In this document: positions 3,102 through 57,656 of the stretch, piece by piece
Numbering within the stretch: the stretch's first letter is position 1
Layout of the letters: the number at the start of each line of letters is the position of its first letter
Assembly: GCA_950022655.1 (NCBI GenBank)
Contig: OX465584.1
Span: forward strand, 45,924,723-45,988,722
Direction: 5' to 3'
Source: Alentia gelatinosa
Lineage: Eukaryota; Annelida; Polychaeta; Phyllodocida; Polynoidae
Length of the DNA: 64,000 bases
Translations under genes and position numbers: made by a program
The notes under the pieces: generated by a model
Databases searched by the model: none
The model's input: only the letters and a program-made list of their open reading frames with translations
What the model was told of the DNA's origin: nothing

Positions 3102-3152
3102 GTTTGTTTGTTTGTTTGGGTAGTTTAACGTCCAATTAGTTCAATTAGACTT
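3102..3152 (-). repeat. SINE 3' tail (GGACGTTAAAC type)
   Basis: On the minus strand this reads AAGTCTAATTGAACTAATTG followed by GACGTTAAACTACCCAAAC and a CAAA-repeat tail. It matches 39541-39600 almost base for base and shares its core with 40275-40313 and with the end of the SINE at 29546-29874. Confidence 0.7.
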
Positions 3153-49893: not shown

Positions 49894-51657
49894 AGGACGA
49901 GGCTTAAACACCTGCACTGCGGCCGACGCAACCGTGAATTTGACCAGAATTCGATCTGATACCAGCCAGTTGCCATGTTATAAACGTAGCAACCATTGTG
50001 AAAAGAGTCAACAATGTTGGGGAGCCTTGGAAGCCGTGATGACTGTCTCCACATCCTCTAAACAGATGTTTTGTTTGGTGGGAGAGTGTAAAAACTCTGC
50101 CATATCTGAAATTTGGATATGGATAGTAGAAAATAGTATTTTCTAAGAGCTCAAACTCAAAGTTTCTTCCGAATCGGACTCCTCAGGCGTCTTTGGGGCT
50201 AACAAGGTCTGGACAGTGTCTAGTTTAAAAAAGATAACCATGGTAAATTGTGTAAAATCCACTTGTCAGTGCAAGTTTGGTGTGTGTTTTGGGTCAATAA
50301 ACAGTTGTTCATGAGAGTCAAAGTTGATTTTAAGAATGTCATACCTGGTTTTAAATTTACAATGGCAAGCCATGTTATGTTTGTTTTCTAACAACCAATG
50401 GACTGTTATAGTAACATGGATTTAAAGGAATGTTGAATCTGCATGAGGTGAAGTTTACCCTCATGGCCTAGAAATAGTTTGATTTTAGAGAGAGGCGGGG
50501 GCAGGGACCTGTAATTTGAAAAATTTTAAACGATGCAGAGGGGTTTGTCCCCATAGTCAGGCTTGTGATTCAACAGTCTGGTCCAAAAGTTAGTAGATGG
50601 GTGCATCTATTAGGTTGAGACCAAAAGGGATTTGGGTCTGTAGTTTGTAGATCCAATTTTTTCAATTCGGTTCCGCGACTGTTGTGCAGTTTTGGAGTCG
50701 GGTGGGGCATGTATGAAATCTACAATAGTGATTTCCACATCATCCAACCCATGATGGTCATTTTGGTTGAAATGATACCTTATATCAGTGTCTACCTTCT
50801 TATACTGGATCCGGTAGAAATGGCCTTGAAAACGATCCATAAGTCATCGTTTTGTCTGGCCTACGTATTGAATGCCGTATGTTTTACAGGTAATACAGTA
50901 AAAATAATGTTGGAGCTCTGGCACGTGATATCGTATTTGGCCGAAAACTCTCGGCCCGTGGAGAACAATTATTTGCAGCCGGTTTTATTCAATCTAGGGC
51001 AGTATCTGCACATGCGATTTGTGCATTCTCTCAGGGTCTTGCCGCTGGTGGCGGCATGTGACTTGGGCTCAGAGCCTGGATGGTACTTCACTTTGGCTCG
51101 GACCAGTTTGCTGCAGAGATTTGGGGGCTTCTTGAGTCTCACTATGTATCCCATATTTTTTAGATTTGCAGTCTTGCTGGACTGTGCCATGAGATGCCAA
51201 TTTGAATCTATAACCTTTCTAGTATTGTTAAAGGTGGGATGGTAAGTGGTCACCAATATGGGCTTTGGTGCCATCTCAGGGCCCCGGTTGTCCTATGTGG
51301 GCAAACCCTTGGGGTCAGGGCGTGGGGTGTGTAGTGCTGAGAGGATAGAATCCGCCACCAGATTGATGGGGTATCCTCTATGAACGAAATGTGCTCCCTT
51401 GAGGAGGTTGTTTCTCAAGAAGTCCTGCACGTTCGTGCAGATTCGTCTAATGCAGAGGAATTGTCCCAGTGGGATACCCCCCCTGCAATGTTTGGGGTGT
51501 GCAGATTGAAAATGCAGAAAATTGTTTGCATCCATCTGCTTAGAGTATAGATCGGTAATGATTTTCCCATCCTCTATCTTAACCAGAGTGTCTAGGAAAG
51601 GGATCTCTACATTGGAGATCTCACTCGTAAATTTGATAGAGGTATGCACATTATTGA
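49894..51657 (-). pseudogene. Decayed Penelope-like element, minus-strand arm
   Basis: Minus-strand coding pieces in broken frames. 51657-51293 gives LNNVHTSIKFTSEISNVEIP, the palm end of a Penelope-type reverse transcriptase. 51274-50969 gives its connector with a Cys cluster (CTNRMCRYCPRLNKTGC). About 50965-50610 gives a GIY-YIG endonuclease (ITCKTYGIQYVGQTKR, then DIRYHFNQNDHHGL), with at least two frame breaks. The 5' part, including the catalytic YxDD region, is missing. 49894-50609 is presumably its 3' untranslated part. It is clearly a different subfamily from the young element nearby (about 40% identity by eye over shared stretches). Confidence 0.8.
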
Positions 51658-51690
51658 GATGTTCAATAATGTGCATACCTCTATCAAATT
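51630..51690. repeat. Perfect 28-bp inverted repeat at the element junction
   Basis: Arms 51630-51657 and 51663-51690 are perfect inverted copies with a 5-base spacer (GATGT). The arm sequence is reverse-transcriptase coding sequence, so the point marks where the old element flips orientation. The young element starts one base beyond the right arm. Confidence 0.9.
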
Positions 51691-51691
51691 C

Positions 51692-52295
51692 TTTAGTTTA
51701 ATTGGGGAACGGATCTTTATCCACTACCAACAATCTAGAAAATTTGAAATAAACATTTCACAAGTCTCCCAATCCAGACTCGCACGATGACCAGGTACAC
51801 CATATGGACAGTGAACATACAAAACATGACAACTGCCCACTGAGTGTGAAGGAAACAACCCCCCACACCCACATAAACAACACACAAAAATGCCAACATA
51901 GACAACAGGCATGACAATAAACACACACAGAAGTAGGATAACACATACACCTACCCACATAGATCCGAAATGTATCTGATGAGCCAGATGATGGCGAAAC
52001 TGCACAGATAAATCAAGTTGGGAAGGGGAAACACAACCTACAAGACCACCATAACAGTGGCCACAAGGTGAAGGTCGAACAGAGAGAACACACCCCTCCG
52101 TTCAACCAACCAAATCCCCCAACCAACAGTGTGTACATGTAACCAAAGACAACCACAGCCTCACCCAATGAGGACGGTTTCAAAACCGGAAACGCAGCGA
52201 AAATGCGCGAATTTCTGTGGTTCAAATCACTTACCTGGTCAGATGTGCAGTCATACTTCGGATTCACCACATGCCCCGTCATAAGATATTCCTAT
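51692..52295 (+). repeat. Penelope-type terminal repeat, left copy (604 bp)
   Basis: Starts TTTAGTTTAATTGGGGAACG and ends CATAAGATATTCCTAT. It is matched by 56966-57569 at a constant offset of 5274 bases. I saw no difference between them, so the insertion or last homogenisation is recent. It contains a hammerhead-like motif. It probably supplies the promoter for ORF1 and ORF2. Confidence 0.92.
51950..52026 (+). ncRNA. Hammerhead-ribozyme-like motif, left repeat
   Basis: The core CTGATGA (51976-51982), a 3-bp stem II GCC/GGC with a 7-base loop, and GAAA (51996-51999) are present. A short stem III CTG-CA-CAG follows. Stem I can form between ATGTAT (51970-51975) and ATAAAT (52008-52013) with one mismatch, and further out between CCTACCCAC (51950-51958) and GTTGGGAAGG (52017-52026). 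Hammerheads are known in Penelope-like elements. The usual U-H cleavage dinucleotide between stem III and stem I appears to be absent, so cleavage may be lost. Confidence 0.65.
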
Positions 52296-52393
52296 CACTT
52301 TTTCCTTTTGAATCCAGTCCTGTACACAGACCACACTGATCGATCTGATTTAGCTCCAGCAGTCCACAGGACGTGTAGCAAAACAGTCACTCA

Positions 52394-54436
52394 GTGCTCT
52401 CAATCTCACCAGTTACTGGGAGATTACAGCAGGTAGAAATAGGCGACATAGTCCTTCATTTCACTGCAACTTCAGTTCCGATCTCGAAGCAGACGGCACT
52501 ATCACACATGTCGGATTCCAACGACGAACCGGCACGCCAAGGGCCATCAGAAATGGTGGTCGAGACGGCGTCGACATCGGCGGACTCCCACACCGGGACG
52601 GCACCGCCGCCCACGCCGACAACGAAGGGGACTAAGAGGAAGTTTTCTTGGACCGCAGAGCCCGAGGAAGCAGACGAAACACCAGTCGAACCGACAACCG
52701 TAAGTACTCCTTCGTTCAAACGCCATAGGCGCAACAAACAATTAAAATTAACTGAATGTCTTTCCCGGCACGCACGCCGCACAACGCTGGTACCTAACCG
52801 CGACAATGCGGAAAACAACGTGATATCGGCGACTGCCGGGAACAAGCTTGTACCAACACACGGAGTTAGCGACACCGATAATTTGCGCATTCTGATCGAA
52901 CTCTCGACGGACTCGCCAAATATCGGATCCGCAACCCACGATAATGTTTATATCGTTAAATCAAAGCCGGATGATGTTTGTTTCGATAACATGCCAAACC
53001 AAATCGGTGTATCAACACCTTGTCAGATCGAATACGAAAGCACCGGCGGTCCACACGCTGAATCCAAGATGGCGGCCCCCACGCGCAATGCGACGGGCGC
53101 CATTATCGAAGCAGAGACACGTCACTGTTTGGTATCTGGAGATGTCTCTCACTTTAACGGTTCCAAACGTGTAAACAACTCGAATTCGATCAATATAAAC
53201 TTGGAAATGCTTCCCCTTACACGTGAAACGACACATACACGTGAAATTTCGGCAACATTCGGAAAATGCGAAAATAACGGCGACAGTCGAACCGAATCCA
53301 AAATGGCGGCTCCCACGCTCGCACAGGGCGCCGCCATTATCGCACACGCTAACGCCTTTGACTTGAACACTACAGACACTGACAACCATACAGGTCTAGT
53401 GAATCATACAGGGCAAGCAAATATTTCGAATGATAATGCACATTATACTTTGATTAAAGTGCCTTCAATACCTACTGAAAGTTCTGTAAATAACTCCAAG
53501 GAGTTAACACAACAACAAAAAGAGTTGAATTCTCCAACAGTTGGGGAAACTTTTGATAATGCCTCTGAGAAATCACACCTGTTGACAAATAAAACTGAAA
53601 AATTGTTTGACACCATGAAAAAAACTCGGAAATTCAATTTTCCAATTTCAGTCAATCATACCACTGCAACTAATTGTGATTTTTCTGCTTCCTCCCCACA
53701 GGCCCCCACAGACAACCGTTTGCCGGATACTGTTTGGGCAGTCTTCAAGCATGCCAGAATAGCAACCCTGGAGGCCATGCGTTCGGAGATGCGTGCTGAA
53801 TGGACAGAGGAGGCGTTGGACGGAGGGTTCATAGAGCCGTGGTGCTACGGTCTGGAGAAGATGCCCCGGAGTTTCGACGGCACACCTCTGGCCAAAAAAA
53901 TCGTGGAGATACGCAAGAATGCGGCTCAGGCTATCATGACCGAGACGGCAAAGTATAGCAAAGACCAAGCGGCTAAATACAAGCGAACCGCTAACGGGTT
54001 CATCTTAGGTGTTAACACGATGCTGACACAGGAAGAACTACCAGACATCGCGAGTAAACACCAGGAGACGGCAAAAACGAGCATGAAGACTCTTATTGCC
54101 TCTGAAGAGAAGAAAGAGAAGTCCGCGCTCAACACAAAGAGTAAGAAAATGGCGGCAAACAAGATAAGAGATGCCGACATTCAGGATCCAGCGAGCTGCC
54201 TGCAGTCGCAGTTCTACAAAAAACAGCAGGCAAAAGCCGACCGGGAAAACACCCAACCACCGAGTAACCAGCTTCAGGGCACCTCGGCTGGGGGCAGTGT
54301 CCTAGAACGCGGCCAACCCCGAGAGACCCACCTGGATTTTTCGGGGCGCGGCCAGCGCGGCCAGTACCGACCTCGCGGGCGCGGCCCAGCGCGCCGAGGA
54401 GGCCGGCGCCCATACAGGGGAAGGCCCCGGTACTGA
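52394..54436 (+). CDS. ORF1 of the Penelope-like element, unknown family
   Basis: A 680-residue frame. The ATG at 52508 (residue 39, MSDSNDEPARQ) may be the real start. Residues about 40-130 are Pro/Thr-rich with basic, NLS-like clusters (KRKFSW, FKRHRRNKQLKL). An internal duplication is seen: ESKMAAPT recurs at about residues 223 and 302, each followed by an AII motif. Residues about 440-600 look more folded and conserved (WAVFKHARIATLEAMRSEMR; EPWCYGLEKMPRSFDG; a Lys-rich helix). The last ~30 residues are Arg/Gly-rich (GRGQRGQYRPRGRGPARRGG), a typical RNA-binding tail. The composition suggests a gag-like nucleic-acid-binding protein, but I recognise no named domain. It ends 2 bases before the first ORF2 start codon called here and overlaps the open ORF2 frame. 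Confidence 0.8.
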   Translation: MLSISPVTGRLQQVEIGDIVLHFTATSVPISKQTALSHMSDSNDEPARQGPSEMVVETASTSADSHTGTAPPPTPTTKGTKRKFSWTAEPEEADETPVEPTTVSTPSFKRHRRNKQLKLTECLSRHARRTTLVPNRDNAENNVISATAGNKLVPTHGVSDTDNLRILIELSTDSPNIGSATHDNVYIVKSKPDDVCFDNMPNQIGVSTPCQIEYESTGGPHAESKMAAPTRNATGAIIEAETRHCLVSGDVSHFNGSKRVNNSNSININLEMLPLTRETTHTREISATFGKCENNGDSRTESKMAAPTLAQGAAIIAHANAFDLNTTDTDNHTGLVNHTGQANISNDNAHYTLIKVPSIPTESSVNNSKELTQQQKELNSPTVGETFDNASEKSHLLTNKTEKLFDTMKKTRKFNFPISVNHTTATNCDFSASSPQAPTDNRLPDTVWAVFKHARIATLEAMRSEMRAEWTEEALDGGFIEPWCYGLEKMPRSFDGTPLAKKIVEIRKNAAQAIMTETAKYSKDQAAKYKRTANGFILGVNTMLTQEELPDIASKHQETAKTSMKTLIASEEKKEKSALNTKSKKMAANKIRDADIQDPASCLQSQFYKKQQAKADRENTQPPSNQLQGTSAGGSVLERGQPRETHLDFSGRGQRGQYRPRGRGPARRGGRRPYRGRPRY

Positions 54437-54438
54437 AC

Positions 54439-56937
54439 TTGAGGTACAACAAAGACTGTAACGAAAAGAAAGCCAAAAAGAACGGTAACATGTACAGGCA
54501 ACTCAGTGAGGAACAAAAGAAACTCTCACTGACTGCCACCACTGCCAATAACATGCGAGAACCGATCAATAAAGAGCCGATCAGTGTTGAAAAAAATGTG
54601 TCAGTTTCTATGTCAACTAGCGAAATCTCAGGTCAAAAGATAATTAACCTGTCAAATCATGTCCTCACAAATGATGAAAAATCTATTCTAGGGAAGGGAC
54701 TGAAATTCTGCCCAACCCAGAACTATGTAGAAAAGGGAGAACTAAGGAAAGACTTAGATACTTTCTCGAACAGGCTTAGAACCAAACAATTCATGGCTAA
54801 AATTGATTCTGAAAAAACAAAAAACAAAAAAATCGGTAGCCTACCACTAGAAAATGTTCTAACCAAAATAAGCCCATATGGCAACACCATAGATTTCATC
54901 AAAATGAAAAAACAAAGTCAATGGAAACCACCACCTGGTTCCACTAATCTCGAGACTTTCATAAGCAATACCGAAACCGATATTACTAAGAGTAGTATTA
55001 AAAGAAACAACAATCAGAATGTGAAAAGGACAGAAAAAGATGCCCTCAGAGACCTAAAACGCAACAAGGAGATAGTAATATTTCCTGCGGACAAAGGGGG
55101 AGCAATTGTAGTACAAAACACAAAAGACTACATCAAAGAAGCACATAGACAACTTGGTGATGAAAACACATATGAAAAACTAGACAAAGATCCAACGAAA
55201 CAACACACAGAAGTAGTGGAACAGCTGGTAGAGGAAATGGTGGAAAATGGAGACATAACCAAGAAAATGGCAAAAACAATATTGGTAATGAAACCAAGAA
55301 CCCCACAAGTATACTTCCTACCTAAAATTCACAAGAATATTCTGCCCCCCCCGGGGAGACCAATCGTATCGGCAAACGACTGTCCTACCGAGCGCATCTC
55401 CGCATTGGTAGACGTTTTTCTGAAACCGCATGTATCAAAAATGAAATCATATGTGAAAGACACGACTGATTTCATCAACAAAATCGAAAAGATTGAAAAA
55501 CTGGAAAAAGACAGCATCATAGGGACAATGGATGTCACCTCTCTATACACCAATATCCCCACGGACGAAGGTATCGAGGTAATACAGGAAAAACTGAACA
55601 AATGCAGAAATCACCTGGAAAAACCATCCAATGAATACCTATGTAAAGCATTAGAAACAGTCCTAAAGAAAAACAATTTCCAGTTCAATGGCACAAACTA
55701 CCTCCAAAAAAGTGGCACAGCAATGGGGACCAGAGTAGCCCCTTCTTTTGCAAACCTCTTCATGGAGAAAATAGAAACAGAAATCCTGGGAAAAACAGGA
55801 AAAAAAACAAAAACATGGTACCGATACATAGATGACATTTTCTTCATCTGGGAGCATGGAGAAAACGATCTAAAAAAGTGGTTAGAGTCAAACAACAAAC
55901 TTCACCACAGCATCAAATTCACAGCCGAATGGTCTAGAGAGAAAATAAATTTCCTTGACACCTGGGTGAAAAAAGATGTAGATGGGAAACTATACACAGA
56001 CCTGTATATGAAACCCACGGATACAAACTCATACCTCAGGTACGAATCGGCCCACCCACCGAGCTGCAAACGTAGCCTACCGGAGAGCCAATTCCTCCGA
56101 ATTAAAAGGATCACTCAAAAAACAGATGACTACGAAAAACATGCAGAAAAGAAAACTGCAGATTTCTTAGAAAGAGGATACCCGTTAGACCTTATCAATG
56201 AGGCCAAGGAAAAGGTAGCAAAAAAGAACAGAACTGACCTTCTGAAACCCAAACCAAAAAGAGACGAAAAATTGGATAGAATTTTTCTCACAACAACTTT
56301 CAGACCGGGCAAAAAACATGTCCAAACAGCTGTCAGAAAAAACTGGGACACCCTGGGCAAGTCAGCAACAACCAAACACATACACCGGGCTGATCTCATG
56401 ATGGGATACCGCCGCCCGAAAAATGTACGTGACCACATAGTGAGTTCAAGGCTGAATTACAACCCAGATGAACCCCTGAAAGGCGAGAGCAGAACCAACA
56501 CTCTAAACAAGTGCAAAAAATCAAACTGCAAATACTGCCAAACACTTGACAGCTCGGGAACTATCACCCAAAAAAGCCGAAAAATGGAATGCAAAAAGAA
56601 TATAACATGCAATAGCTCAAATGTAATCTACTGCATAGAATGCAAAAAATGCAACATCAGATATGTTGGTCAAACCAAACGGAAAATAAAAGAGAGAATC
56701 CGTGAACACATGTACTCTGTGAAAACAAAAAAGGACTCGGACATCGGGTACCACTTCAACAACACCCTACATGAGGGCACCTCAGACATGAAGGTCTACA
56801 TATTAGACTTCATATACGAGCACCCCGAAAGTGACAGAGCAAAAACACTCAGAAACACTATCGAGCATAATTGGATCCATCGACTACAAACTGTAGCACC
56901 TTATGGTCTGAATACAATGGACAACAAATATGGATGA
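54439..56937 (+). CDS. ORF2: Penelope-type reverse transcriptase with GIY-YIG endonuclease
   Basis: 832 codons. Residues about 215-225 carry ADKGGAIVV; 295-315 PKIHKNILPPPGRPIVSAND; 365 DVTSLYTNIP (motif A Asp); then GTAMGTRVAPSFANLFM; about 463 YIDD (motif C); FLERGYPLDLI ends the RT part. A Cys cluster (CKKSNCKYCQTL, about 691-705) precedes the GIY-YIG domain at about 728-760 (VIYCIECKKC then IRYVGQTKRKIKERIREH). This order (RT, Zn-binding linker, GIY-YIG) defines endonuclease-bearing Penelope-like elements, which insert by target-primed reverse transcription. No frame breaks are seen, so it looks competent. The listed start is TTG; the first ATG is 54490. The frame is open from 54268, in -1 relative to ORF1, without an ATG in the overlap, so ORF2 may be made by reinitiation or frameshifting. 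Confidence 0.93.
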   Translation: MRYNKDCNEKKAKKNGNMYRQLSEEQKKLSLTATTANNMREPINKEPISVEKNVSVSMSTSEISGQKIINLSNHVLTNDEKSILGKGLKFCPTQNYVEKGELRKDLDTFSNRLRTKQFMAKIDSEKTKNKKIGSLPLENVLTKISPYGNTIDFIKMKKQSQWKPPPGSTNLETFISNTETDITKSSIKRNNNQNVKRTEKDALRDLKRNKEIVIFPADKGGAIVVQNTKDYIKEAHRQLGDENTYEKLDKDPTKQHTEVVEQLVEEMVENGDITKKMAKTILVMKPRTPQVYFLPKIHKNILPPPGRPIVSANDCPTERISALVDVFLKPHVSKMKSYVKDTTDFINKIEKIEKLEKDSIIGTMDVTSLYTNIPTDEGIEVIQEKLNKCRNHLEKPSNEYLCKALETVLKKNNFQFNGTNYLQKSGTAMGTRVAPSFANLFMEKIETEILGKTGKKTKTWYRYIDDIFFIWEHGENDLKKWLESNNKLHHSIKFTAEWSREKINFLDTWVKKDVDGKLYTDLYMKPTDTNSYLRYESAHPPSCKRSLPESQFLRIKRITQKTDDYEKHAEKKTADFLERGYPLDLINEAKEKVAKKNRTDLLKPKPKRDEKLDRIFLTTTFRPGKKHVQTAVRKNWDTLGKSATTKHIHRADLMMGYRRPKNVRDHIVSSRLNYNPDEPLKGESRTNTLNKCKKSNCKYCQTLDSSGTITQKSRKMECKKNITCNSSNVIYCIECKKCNIRYVGQTKRKIKERIREHMYSVKTKKDSDIGYHFNNTLHEGTSDMKVYILDFIYEHPESDRAKTLRNTIEHNWIHRLQTVAPYGLNTMDNKYG

Positions 56938-56965
56938 GAGACAAACACAGCCACGTCAAAAATTT

Positions 56966-57569
56966 TTTAGTTTAATTGGGGAACGGATCTTTATCCACTA
57001 CCAACAATCTAGAAAATTTGAAATAAACATTTCACAAGTCTCCCAATCCAGACTCGCACGATGACCAGGTACACCATATGGACAGTGAACATACAAAACA
57101 TGACAACTGCCCACTGAGTGTGAAGGAAACAACCCCCCACACCCACATAAACAACACACAAAAATGCCAACATAGACAACAGGCATGACAATAAACACAC
57201 ACAGAAGTAGGATAACACATACACCTACCCACATAGATCCGAAATGTATCTGATGAGCCAGATGATGGCGAAACTGCACAGATAAATCAAGTTGGGAAGG
57301 GGAAACACAACCTACAAGACCACCATAACAGTGGCCACAAGGTGAAGGTCGAACAGAGAGAACACACCCCTCCGTTCAACCAACCAAATCCCCCAACCAA
57401 CAGTGTGTACATGTAACCAAAGACAACCACAGCCTCACCCAATGAGGACGGTTTCAAAACCGGAAACGCAGCGAAAATGCGCGAATTTCTGTGGTTCAAA
57501 TCACTTACCTGGTCAGATGTGCAGTCATACTTCGGATTCACCACATGCCCCGTCATAAGATATTCCTAT
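56966..57569 (+). repeat. Penelope-type terminal repeat, right copy (604 bp)
   Basis: Copy of 51692-52295, beginning 29 bases after the ORF2 stop codon. The first base or two upstream (AAATTTTTTAG versus AAATTCTTTAG) leave the exact left edge uncertain by a few bases. Confidence 0.92.
57224..57300 (+). ncRNA. Hammerhead-ribozyme-like motif, right repeat
   Basis: Second copy, with CTGATGA at 57250-57256 and the same apparent absence of the U-H cleavage dinucleotide. Two copies in one transcript would bracket the ORF-containing unit. Confidence 0.65.
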
Positions 57570-57635
57570 TAACCTAATAGATGCACCCATCTTCTTACTT
57601 TTGGACCAGACTGTTGAATCACAAGCCTGACTAAG
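57570..57635 (+). pseudogene. Plus-strand 3' tail of the decayed Penelope-like element
   Basis: AACCTAATAGATGCACCCAT and the following 45 bases are the reverse complement of 50555-50620, the stop-codon and 3' flank region of the old minus-strand copy, with a few differences. It is immediately followed by the right target-site duplication. With the hairpin arm at 51663-51690 it shows that a plus-oriented arm of the old element once lay here. Confidence 0.85.
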
Positions 57636-57656
57636 GAGAATGTAGATAGCTGTTAT
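57636..57656. repeat. Target-site duplication, right copy
   Basis: GAGAATGTAGATAGCTGTTA plus T; matches 49873-49893 at 20 of 21 bases. Confidence 0.75.

Follow-up and report, generated by a model that had tools for sequence, protein, structure and literature searches.

Penelope-like elements (PLEs) are a third class of retroelements; they are related to telomerase, and the mechanism of their mobility is little known. In the part of PMC6431247 available to us, PLEs have either one open reading frame (ORF) with an endonuclease or two ORFs without one. The accessible part of PMC5408684 mentions esterases in Neptune-like PLEs, and that of PMC3846280 gives a Cys-rich domain between the reverse transcriptase (RT) and the endonuclease as a mark of Neptune-like elements. 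We analyzed a window of 64,000 nucleotides (nt) from the polychaete Alentia gelatinosa (assembly GCA_950022655.1, contig OX465584.1, positions 45,924,723 to 45,988,722 of the forward strand). Judged from its sequence, the segment at window positions 51692 to 57569 is an endonuclease-bearing PLE that is intact, was recently active and belongs to a lineage with two ORFs. Instead of the single ORF usual in endonuclease-bearing PLEs, a separate ORF1 is present in the window element, in a complete sibling copy (L009) and in relatives, and this ORF1 apparently contains an in-frame intron. Features of the element are on the + strand.

The element is bounded by two pseudo-long terminal repeats (pseudo-LTRs, pLTRs) of 604 base pairs (bp), the left at 51692 to 52295 and the right at 56966 to 57569. 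They are identical at 604/604 positions with an offset of 5274, and the identity breaks off on either side precisely at these boundaries. The sibling L009, on contig C3, differs from the window element at 41 of 5878 positions (99.3% identity) and shows 0/604 differences between its own two repeats. The structure of the element is therefore not due to chance. The original prediction, made from the sequence of the window without database searches, had described an intact endonuclease-bearing PLE with two open ORFs and identical 604-bp terminal repeats at this offset. Its coordinates were right to the single base, the two frames are indeed open (642 and 815 amino acids, aa), and the second complete copy has the same structure.

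The endonuclease could also be verified. ORF2 (54490 to 56937 including the stop codon, 815 aa) gave Pfam matches to RVT_1 at aa 315-477 (55432 to 55920, E 5e-12) and to a C-terminal GIY-YIG endonuclease at aa 712-799 (56623 to 56886, E 4.6e-5), both in one ORF. A Cys-rich stretch lies between RT and endonuclease (C675, C680, C683, C707, C718 and C721; 56512 to 56652), and all six Cys residues were invariant across 14 aligned ORF2 proteins. ORF2-related proteins numbered 1638 at E <= 1e-5. Viral contigs yielded 42 pattern matches to ORF2, of which 0 were confirmed, and prokaryote assemblies yielded 6 loci, which we take to be eukaryote contaminants.

The host genome searched comprises 1.23 Gb, with the window on contig C6. 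Its mitochondrial contig (C101) reads well with the invertebrate genetic code and has the genes ND3, tRNA-Ser, ND2, COX1, tRNA-Asn, COX2, tRNA-Asp and tRNA-Tyr in succession, the proteins being named by eye; this is the order common in annelids and points most likely to an annelid host. At least 57 ORF2 matches were found in it, 55 of 7943 candidates having been scored, so that copy counts are lower bounds. All 815 ORF2 residues were matched at 100% (rounded) in at least six places, namely the window, C3, C13, C7 (two) and C8. On C2, the arrangement was head to tail, with the end of one unit running into a pLTR and a complete ORF1, and on C7 two copies stood head to head with an overlap of 6 nt. 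The copies on C13, C8 and C5 were 5'-truncated and bore, where they break off, a piece of pLTR in inverted orientation, and inverted pLTR tails of ~60 to 90 nt were seen at the truncated copies L010, L012, L039 and L017. Tandem, inverted and truncated PLE arrangements of such kinds are described in the portions of PMC3846280 and PMC11167929 at hand. The pseudo-LTRs, the tandem and inverted copies and the 5' truncation with an inverted tail are thus all as expected of a PLE. No clear target-site duplication was seen on inspecting the flanks of the window element and L009. Two identical terminal direct repeats would also suit an LTR retrotransposon with true LTRs. However, Pfam gave no match for a protease or an integrase, whereas GIY-YIG and a PLE-type RT are present, and the 5' truncation, the inverted repeat tails and the head-to-head and tandem copies rule this explanation out; we regard it as vanishingly improbable.

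ORF1 extends from its first in-frame ATG at 52508 to the stop codon at 54434-54436 and encodes 642 aa; from stop to stop, the identical frame of L009 spans 685 aa. Its conserved C-terminal domain (244 aa; 53702 to 54436 with the stop codon, termed exon 2 below) was delimited by alignment and profile matches, and 14 columns were invariant in an alignment of 10 members. The domain ends in an Arg/Gly-rich tail (54341 to 54433) in 10/10 aligned members; the original prediction had noted this tail in the window ORF1 and had also placed a separate long ORF1 upstream of ORF2. We fetched 20 loci (L009 to L028), chosen from the ORF2 matches and comprising near-identical copies, relatives at 71-81% and relatives at 51-54%. 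The domain profile matched upstream of ORF2 in 19/20 of them. A check for copies lacking ORF1 had been set beforehand, and the only such locus, L017, proved by comparison with L016 to be truncated inside ORF2. When the genome was searched with ORF1, at least 78 matches came up; 69 of 1134 candidates were scored.

An RT tree was built from 48 rows: the window, 8 loci of its own genome, 4 contaminant loci and 35 of 120 listed relatives, unnamed. All own-genome rows (9/9) fell in one group of 19 rows with a support of 100/100 and were spread over two subclades. The same ORF1 occurs in both subclades and was therefore present in their ancestor. These sequence comparisons indicate that ORF1 is a regular upstream component of the element, ancestral to the lineage. 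The 19-row group also holds 10 relatives from other contigs, and ORF1 would be expected in hosts other than this genome as well. The alternative that ORF1 is an unrelated sequence, inserted by chance before ORF2 in this copy, would agree with the lack of a recognised outside homologue. It is nevertheless ruled out for this genome by the presence of the domain before ORF2 in nearly all fetched loci, across families ~50% identical in ORF2, and its probability is negligible. Comparison of ORF1 with a protein collection gave no outside homologue in a search that needs shared 5-residue words and has limited sensitivity, given that the exon 2 parts of distant families in the same genome are only 20-26% identical to that of the window.

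A putative in-frame intron (exitron) of 1002 nt was recognised within ORF1 at 52700 to 53701 (GTAAGT...CACAG, phase 0), stop-free in the ORF1 frame. The original prediction was correct in calling the frame open but overlooked the apparent intron inside it. Exon 1 (52508 to 52699) is an open frame of 64 codons whose end is joined to exon 2 in a copy on C5. The putative donor lies between codons 64 and 65 (ACC followed by GTAAGT) and the putative acceptor between codons 398 and 399 (CACAG followed by GCC). In the C5 copy, the final 10 nt of exon 1 are joined exactly to exon 2, and the join falls on GT...AG. This exact exon junction occurred once in the genome, with 0 mismatches, and the unspliced donor had 3 exact occurrences (C2, C3 and C6) and 1 with 2 mismatches.

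The splice-site sequences were conserved across families. We ranked candidate sites over 9 ORF1s of distinct families, using base frequencies from general knowledge. The homologous acceptor is a CAG codon preceded by a mostly pyrimidine-rich stretch; it ranked first among the 91-175 AG of each ORF1 in 8/9 cases and second in 1/9. Among 68-86 GT, the donor ranked first or second in 6/7 ORF1s and sixth in 1/7. The introns of seven families measured 1002, 816, 693, 672, 996, 723 and 675 nt; these lengths are multiples of 3 because both sites lie on codon borders of one open frame. The intron had 0 in-frame stops in 9/10 ORF1s, against 12-33 in each other frame; L009, L018 and L023 in this count are siblings of other listed ORF1s. 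Splice sites inside a coding exon, a length divisible by 3 and the absence of an in-frame stop, by which exitrons are recognised in sequence, are thus all found here, except that L018 has one stop.

The intron also differed in its rate of change. Between the window and L009, the divergence was 1.90% in the intron, 1.56% in exon 1, 0.27% in exon 2, 0.49% in ORF2 and 0.33% in each pLTR. The intron differences comprised 9 nonsynonymous and 10 synonymous changes, where 3.36:1 was expected (p 0.005, or 0.023 when transition-weighted). In more distant pairs, the nonsynonymous divergence (pN) was likewise below the synonymous divergence (pS) in the intron, with pS saturated. The segment is fast-evolving, looks translated and is apparently removable, and is therefore read as an exitron, apparently spliceable so as to give ORF1 forms of 308 and 642 aa.

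Several observations weigh against splicing and against an RNA-packaging role for ORF1. The junction evidence is a single spliced copy that keeps only 10 nt of exon 1. A backward control of the junction pattern gave 1 match at <=2 mismatches, although the real junction match has 0 mismatches and sits in an element copy. The motif GACAACC recurs 9 nt into exon 2, and slippage could mimic the junction over 8 nt. A junction pattern for the L028 and L037 families had 0 matches, the L037 donor is weak, and neither a donor nor a match to exon 1 could be located in L022 and L024. For the protein itself, Pfam gave no match to the window ORF1 up to E 1, and Pfam (10 members) and PDB searches gave no significant match, so that the homology to Gag or to the ORF1 protein of long interspersed nuclear elements (LINEs) was not found. 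A single-sequence AlphaFold2 (AF2) model of the exon 2 part (193 aa) was all helical but too poor for a comparison of folds, with a predicted local distance difference test score (pLDDT) of 52.6. The term gag-like, used in the original prediction, can consequently be kept as an analogy only. A junction pattern with 15 nt of exon 1 had 0 genome matches, so that spliced copies retaining more of exon 1 were not observed.

A rival explanation is that ORF1 is native but never spliced. Its product would then be a single protein of 642 aa containing a fast-evolving linker, the splice-like sequences would be incidental or relics, and the C5 junction would result from slippage during 5' truncation. A frame open throughout and under some constraint, the repeated GACAACC and the finding of one junction copy are in line with this explanation. 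However, the C5 junction agrees with exon 1 over 10 nt and falls exactly at GT...AG. In addition, the top-ranking AG of nearly all ORF1s examined is the homologous acceptor, although their intron sequences have otherwise diverged, and the donor is near-best in most of those in which it was placed. We therefore consider a never-spliced ORF1 possible but unlikely, and we infer that splicing takes place in the animal.

Two observations concern sequences in and next to the putative intron. Three independent copies, L010, L011 and L039 (on C13, C7 and C5), are 5'-truncated at window-equivalent positions 53697-53702, so that their truncation points cluster within 6 nt of the putative acceptor, with exon 1 bases present only in C5. 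We considered whether all three truncations derive from spliced RNA and rejected it, since only C5 fits and those on C13 and C7 are microhomology joins. Furthermore, AARATGGCGGC occurs twice inside the intron (53066-53076 and 53301-53311), encoding the peptide KMAAP, and KMAA recurs in L014 and L016. The motif resembles the YY1 site of L1 promoters and equally provides a favorable context for a start codon.

ORF1 and Gag proteins coat element RNA in LINEs and LTR elements. Considering the above observations together, we favor a two-ORF PLE whose RNA has three uses, as spliced ORF1 message, as unspliced ORF1 message and as template, and we judge this reading as a whole to be probable, with considerable doubt. 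The spliced RNA would encode the 308-aa ORF1 protein (64 + 244 aa), and the helical domain and Arg/Gly tail of this form may coat the element RNA. The unspliced RNA would encode the 642-aa form with its fast-evolving extra segment and would usually serve as the template too. ORF2 would then cut the target and copy tandem RNA from an internal start, and this would account for the pseudo-LTR at either end and for the short inverted pLTR tails that truncated copies carry. Internal initiation has been demonstrated in vitro for an Anolis PLE, according to the available part of PMC11167929. A bolder proposal is that an endonuclease-bearing PLE lineage evolved its own gag-like RNA-packaging protein under the control of a conserved protein-coding intron, such that spliced RNA gives the packaging protein and unspliced RNA gives the longer form and the genome copied by the RT. 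We put this forward tentatively and hold it to be less probable than not by some way. If true, telomerase-related retroelements would have invented independently what LTR elements have in their splice-regulated gag. The combination of a conserved splice switch and a partner protein whose tail is of the RNA-binding type would offer a way into the question of how PLE RNA is shielded and selected for copying, and might also bear on the retention of introns in PLEs. Several near-identical copies lie in one genome, so the reading is directly testable by RNA sequencing of the host.

The means by which ORF2 is expressed was considered separately. Its frame is open upstream of the first ORF2-frame ATG (54490), from 54268 to 54489, and overlaps ORF1 by 166 nt in the -1 frame. 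The same -1 overlap was found in 13/13 tabulated loci, including the distant L042, L043 and L045; the table excludes L021, L026 and L027, which have a broken or unclear ORF1 frame. In L015 and L016, whose ORF2s are stop-free, the first ORF2-frame ATG lies 377 nt beyond the ORF1 stop, inside a conserved region. The conserved N-terminus of these ORF2s precedes the first ATG, and their ORF2 must therefore start without an ATG, by frameshift or by splicing. One explanation is that ribosomes shift into the -1 frame and produce an ORF1-ORF2 fusion, so that the element works as a gag-pol-like unit. The universal -1 overlap and the late ATG of L015 and L016 speak for it, as does a strict slippery heptamer inside the overlap in 7/13 loci, a count without chance comparison. 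However, the window, L009, L015, L016, L024 and L043 lack such a heptamer, and in the window family an ORF2-frame ATG lies 53 nt beyond the ORF1 stop, so that reinitiation would suffice. We consider frameshifting rather improbable. A candidate PLE for it is nevertheless L042, a tandem element on a contig that is recorded as Epulopiscium but presumably stems from the host fish; its overlap contains TTTAAAC (position 3119), and the next 1088 nt hold no ORF2-frame ATG.

A hammerhead-like core, CTGATGAG-hairpin-CGAAAC, was found by pattern at 51976 to 52000 and is repeated at 57250-57274. The core CTGANGA-hairpin-GAAAC was present near the element end in 19/20 fetched loci (not in L024), and its hairpin differs between families yet still pairs, as judged by eye. 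The pattern also gave chance matches inside ORF2. Rfam, run without a positive control, gave no match to the motif, and a canonical stem I was not seen by eye. In the Anolis element PAc, according to the part of PMC11167929 consulted, the ORF begins within the hammerhead motif, and cleavage by the ribozyme requires the protein.

Both flanks of the element belong to a different, older PLE. On the left lies a 5'-truncated fragment of a second PLE family (50413 to 51690, - strand), which ends in a 28-nt perfect hairpin (51630-51690). It shows 45% and 24% protein identity to ORF2 and an 80.6% match to L048 on C9. On the right lies a 69-nt piece of the same second PLE (57571 to 57639, + strand), inverted relative to 50548-50616 with a 94% inverted match and also found within the second PLE's own sequence. 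From these sequences, the window element appears inserted as if between the body of the older PLE and its inverted tail.

The original prediction considered a second ORF unusual in endonuclease-bearing PLEs. This view stands for the type of ORF1 found here, which was not encountered in the literature searched, but a second ORF is not unprecedented. Esterase types are known from the accessible part of PMC5408684, and L042 and L043 are further cases; a second ORF in an endonuclease-bearing PLE is therefore not new in itself. A partial literature survey, covering listings and the beginnings of abstracts, gave neither an endonuclease-bearing PLE with this ORF1 nor an exitron in a PLE. As far as these searches reach, this ORF1 type and its exitron appear new, whereas an accessory ORF in endonuclease-bearing PLEs is already known.

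Compared by description only, from the source portions available, the window element resembles Neptune-like PLEs in its RT, its C-terminal GIY-YIG domain with, between the two, a Cys-rich stretch that may correspond to theirs, and its accessory ORF. Unlike the esterase ORFs of Neptune-like elements, its ORF1 has no esterase match and carries an Arg/Gly tail and an apparent in-frame intron. It shares pseudo-LTRs, tandem and inverted copies, inverted tails, RT with GIY-YIG and a hammerhead-like motif near the pLTR with Penelope/Poseidon PLEs such as PAc, as described in the same part of PMC11167929. In contrast to the single ORF of PAc-type PLEs, which starts inside the hammerhead, the window element has only a 7-codon ATG frame at that place, and its ORF1 starts ~500 nt downstream. 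Athena and Coprina are also two-ORF PLEs, but their description in the available text of PMC6431247 sets them apart, as they lack an endonuclease.

In the endonuclease-bearing PLEs L042 and L043, which lie on contigs taken to be contaminants of prokaryote assemblies, ORF2 is preceded by an ORF1 with which it overlaps in the -1 frame, as in the window. However, their ORF1s share a GDSL/SGNH-like domain (34% mutual identity; the Pfam match of L043 is weak and below the cut-off), the L042 ORF1 has no similarity to that of the window, and both elements lack the upstream Cys cluster of the window element. At L045 (1255-2361), a PLE-like RT is preceded by an ORF1 of 369 aa with a basic tail in the same -1 frame relation, and this ORF1 showed no similarity to the window ORF1. 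In Drosophila copia, a choice in splicing separates the mRNA for structural proteins from the genomic RNA and so regulates gag. The likeness to copia is an analogy only, as copia is an LTR element, whereas in the PLE described here the unspliced frame stays open.

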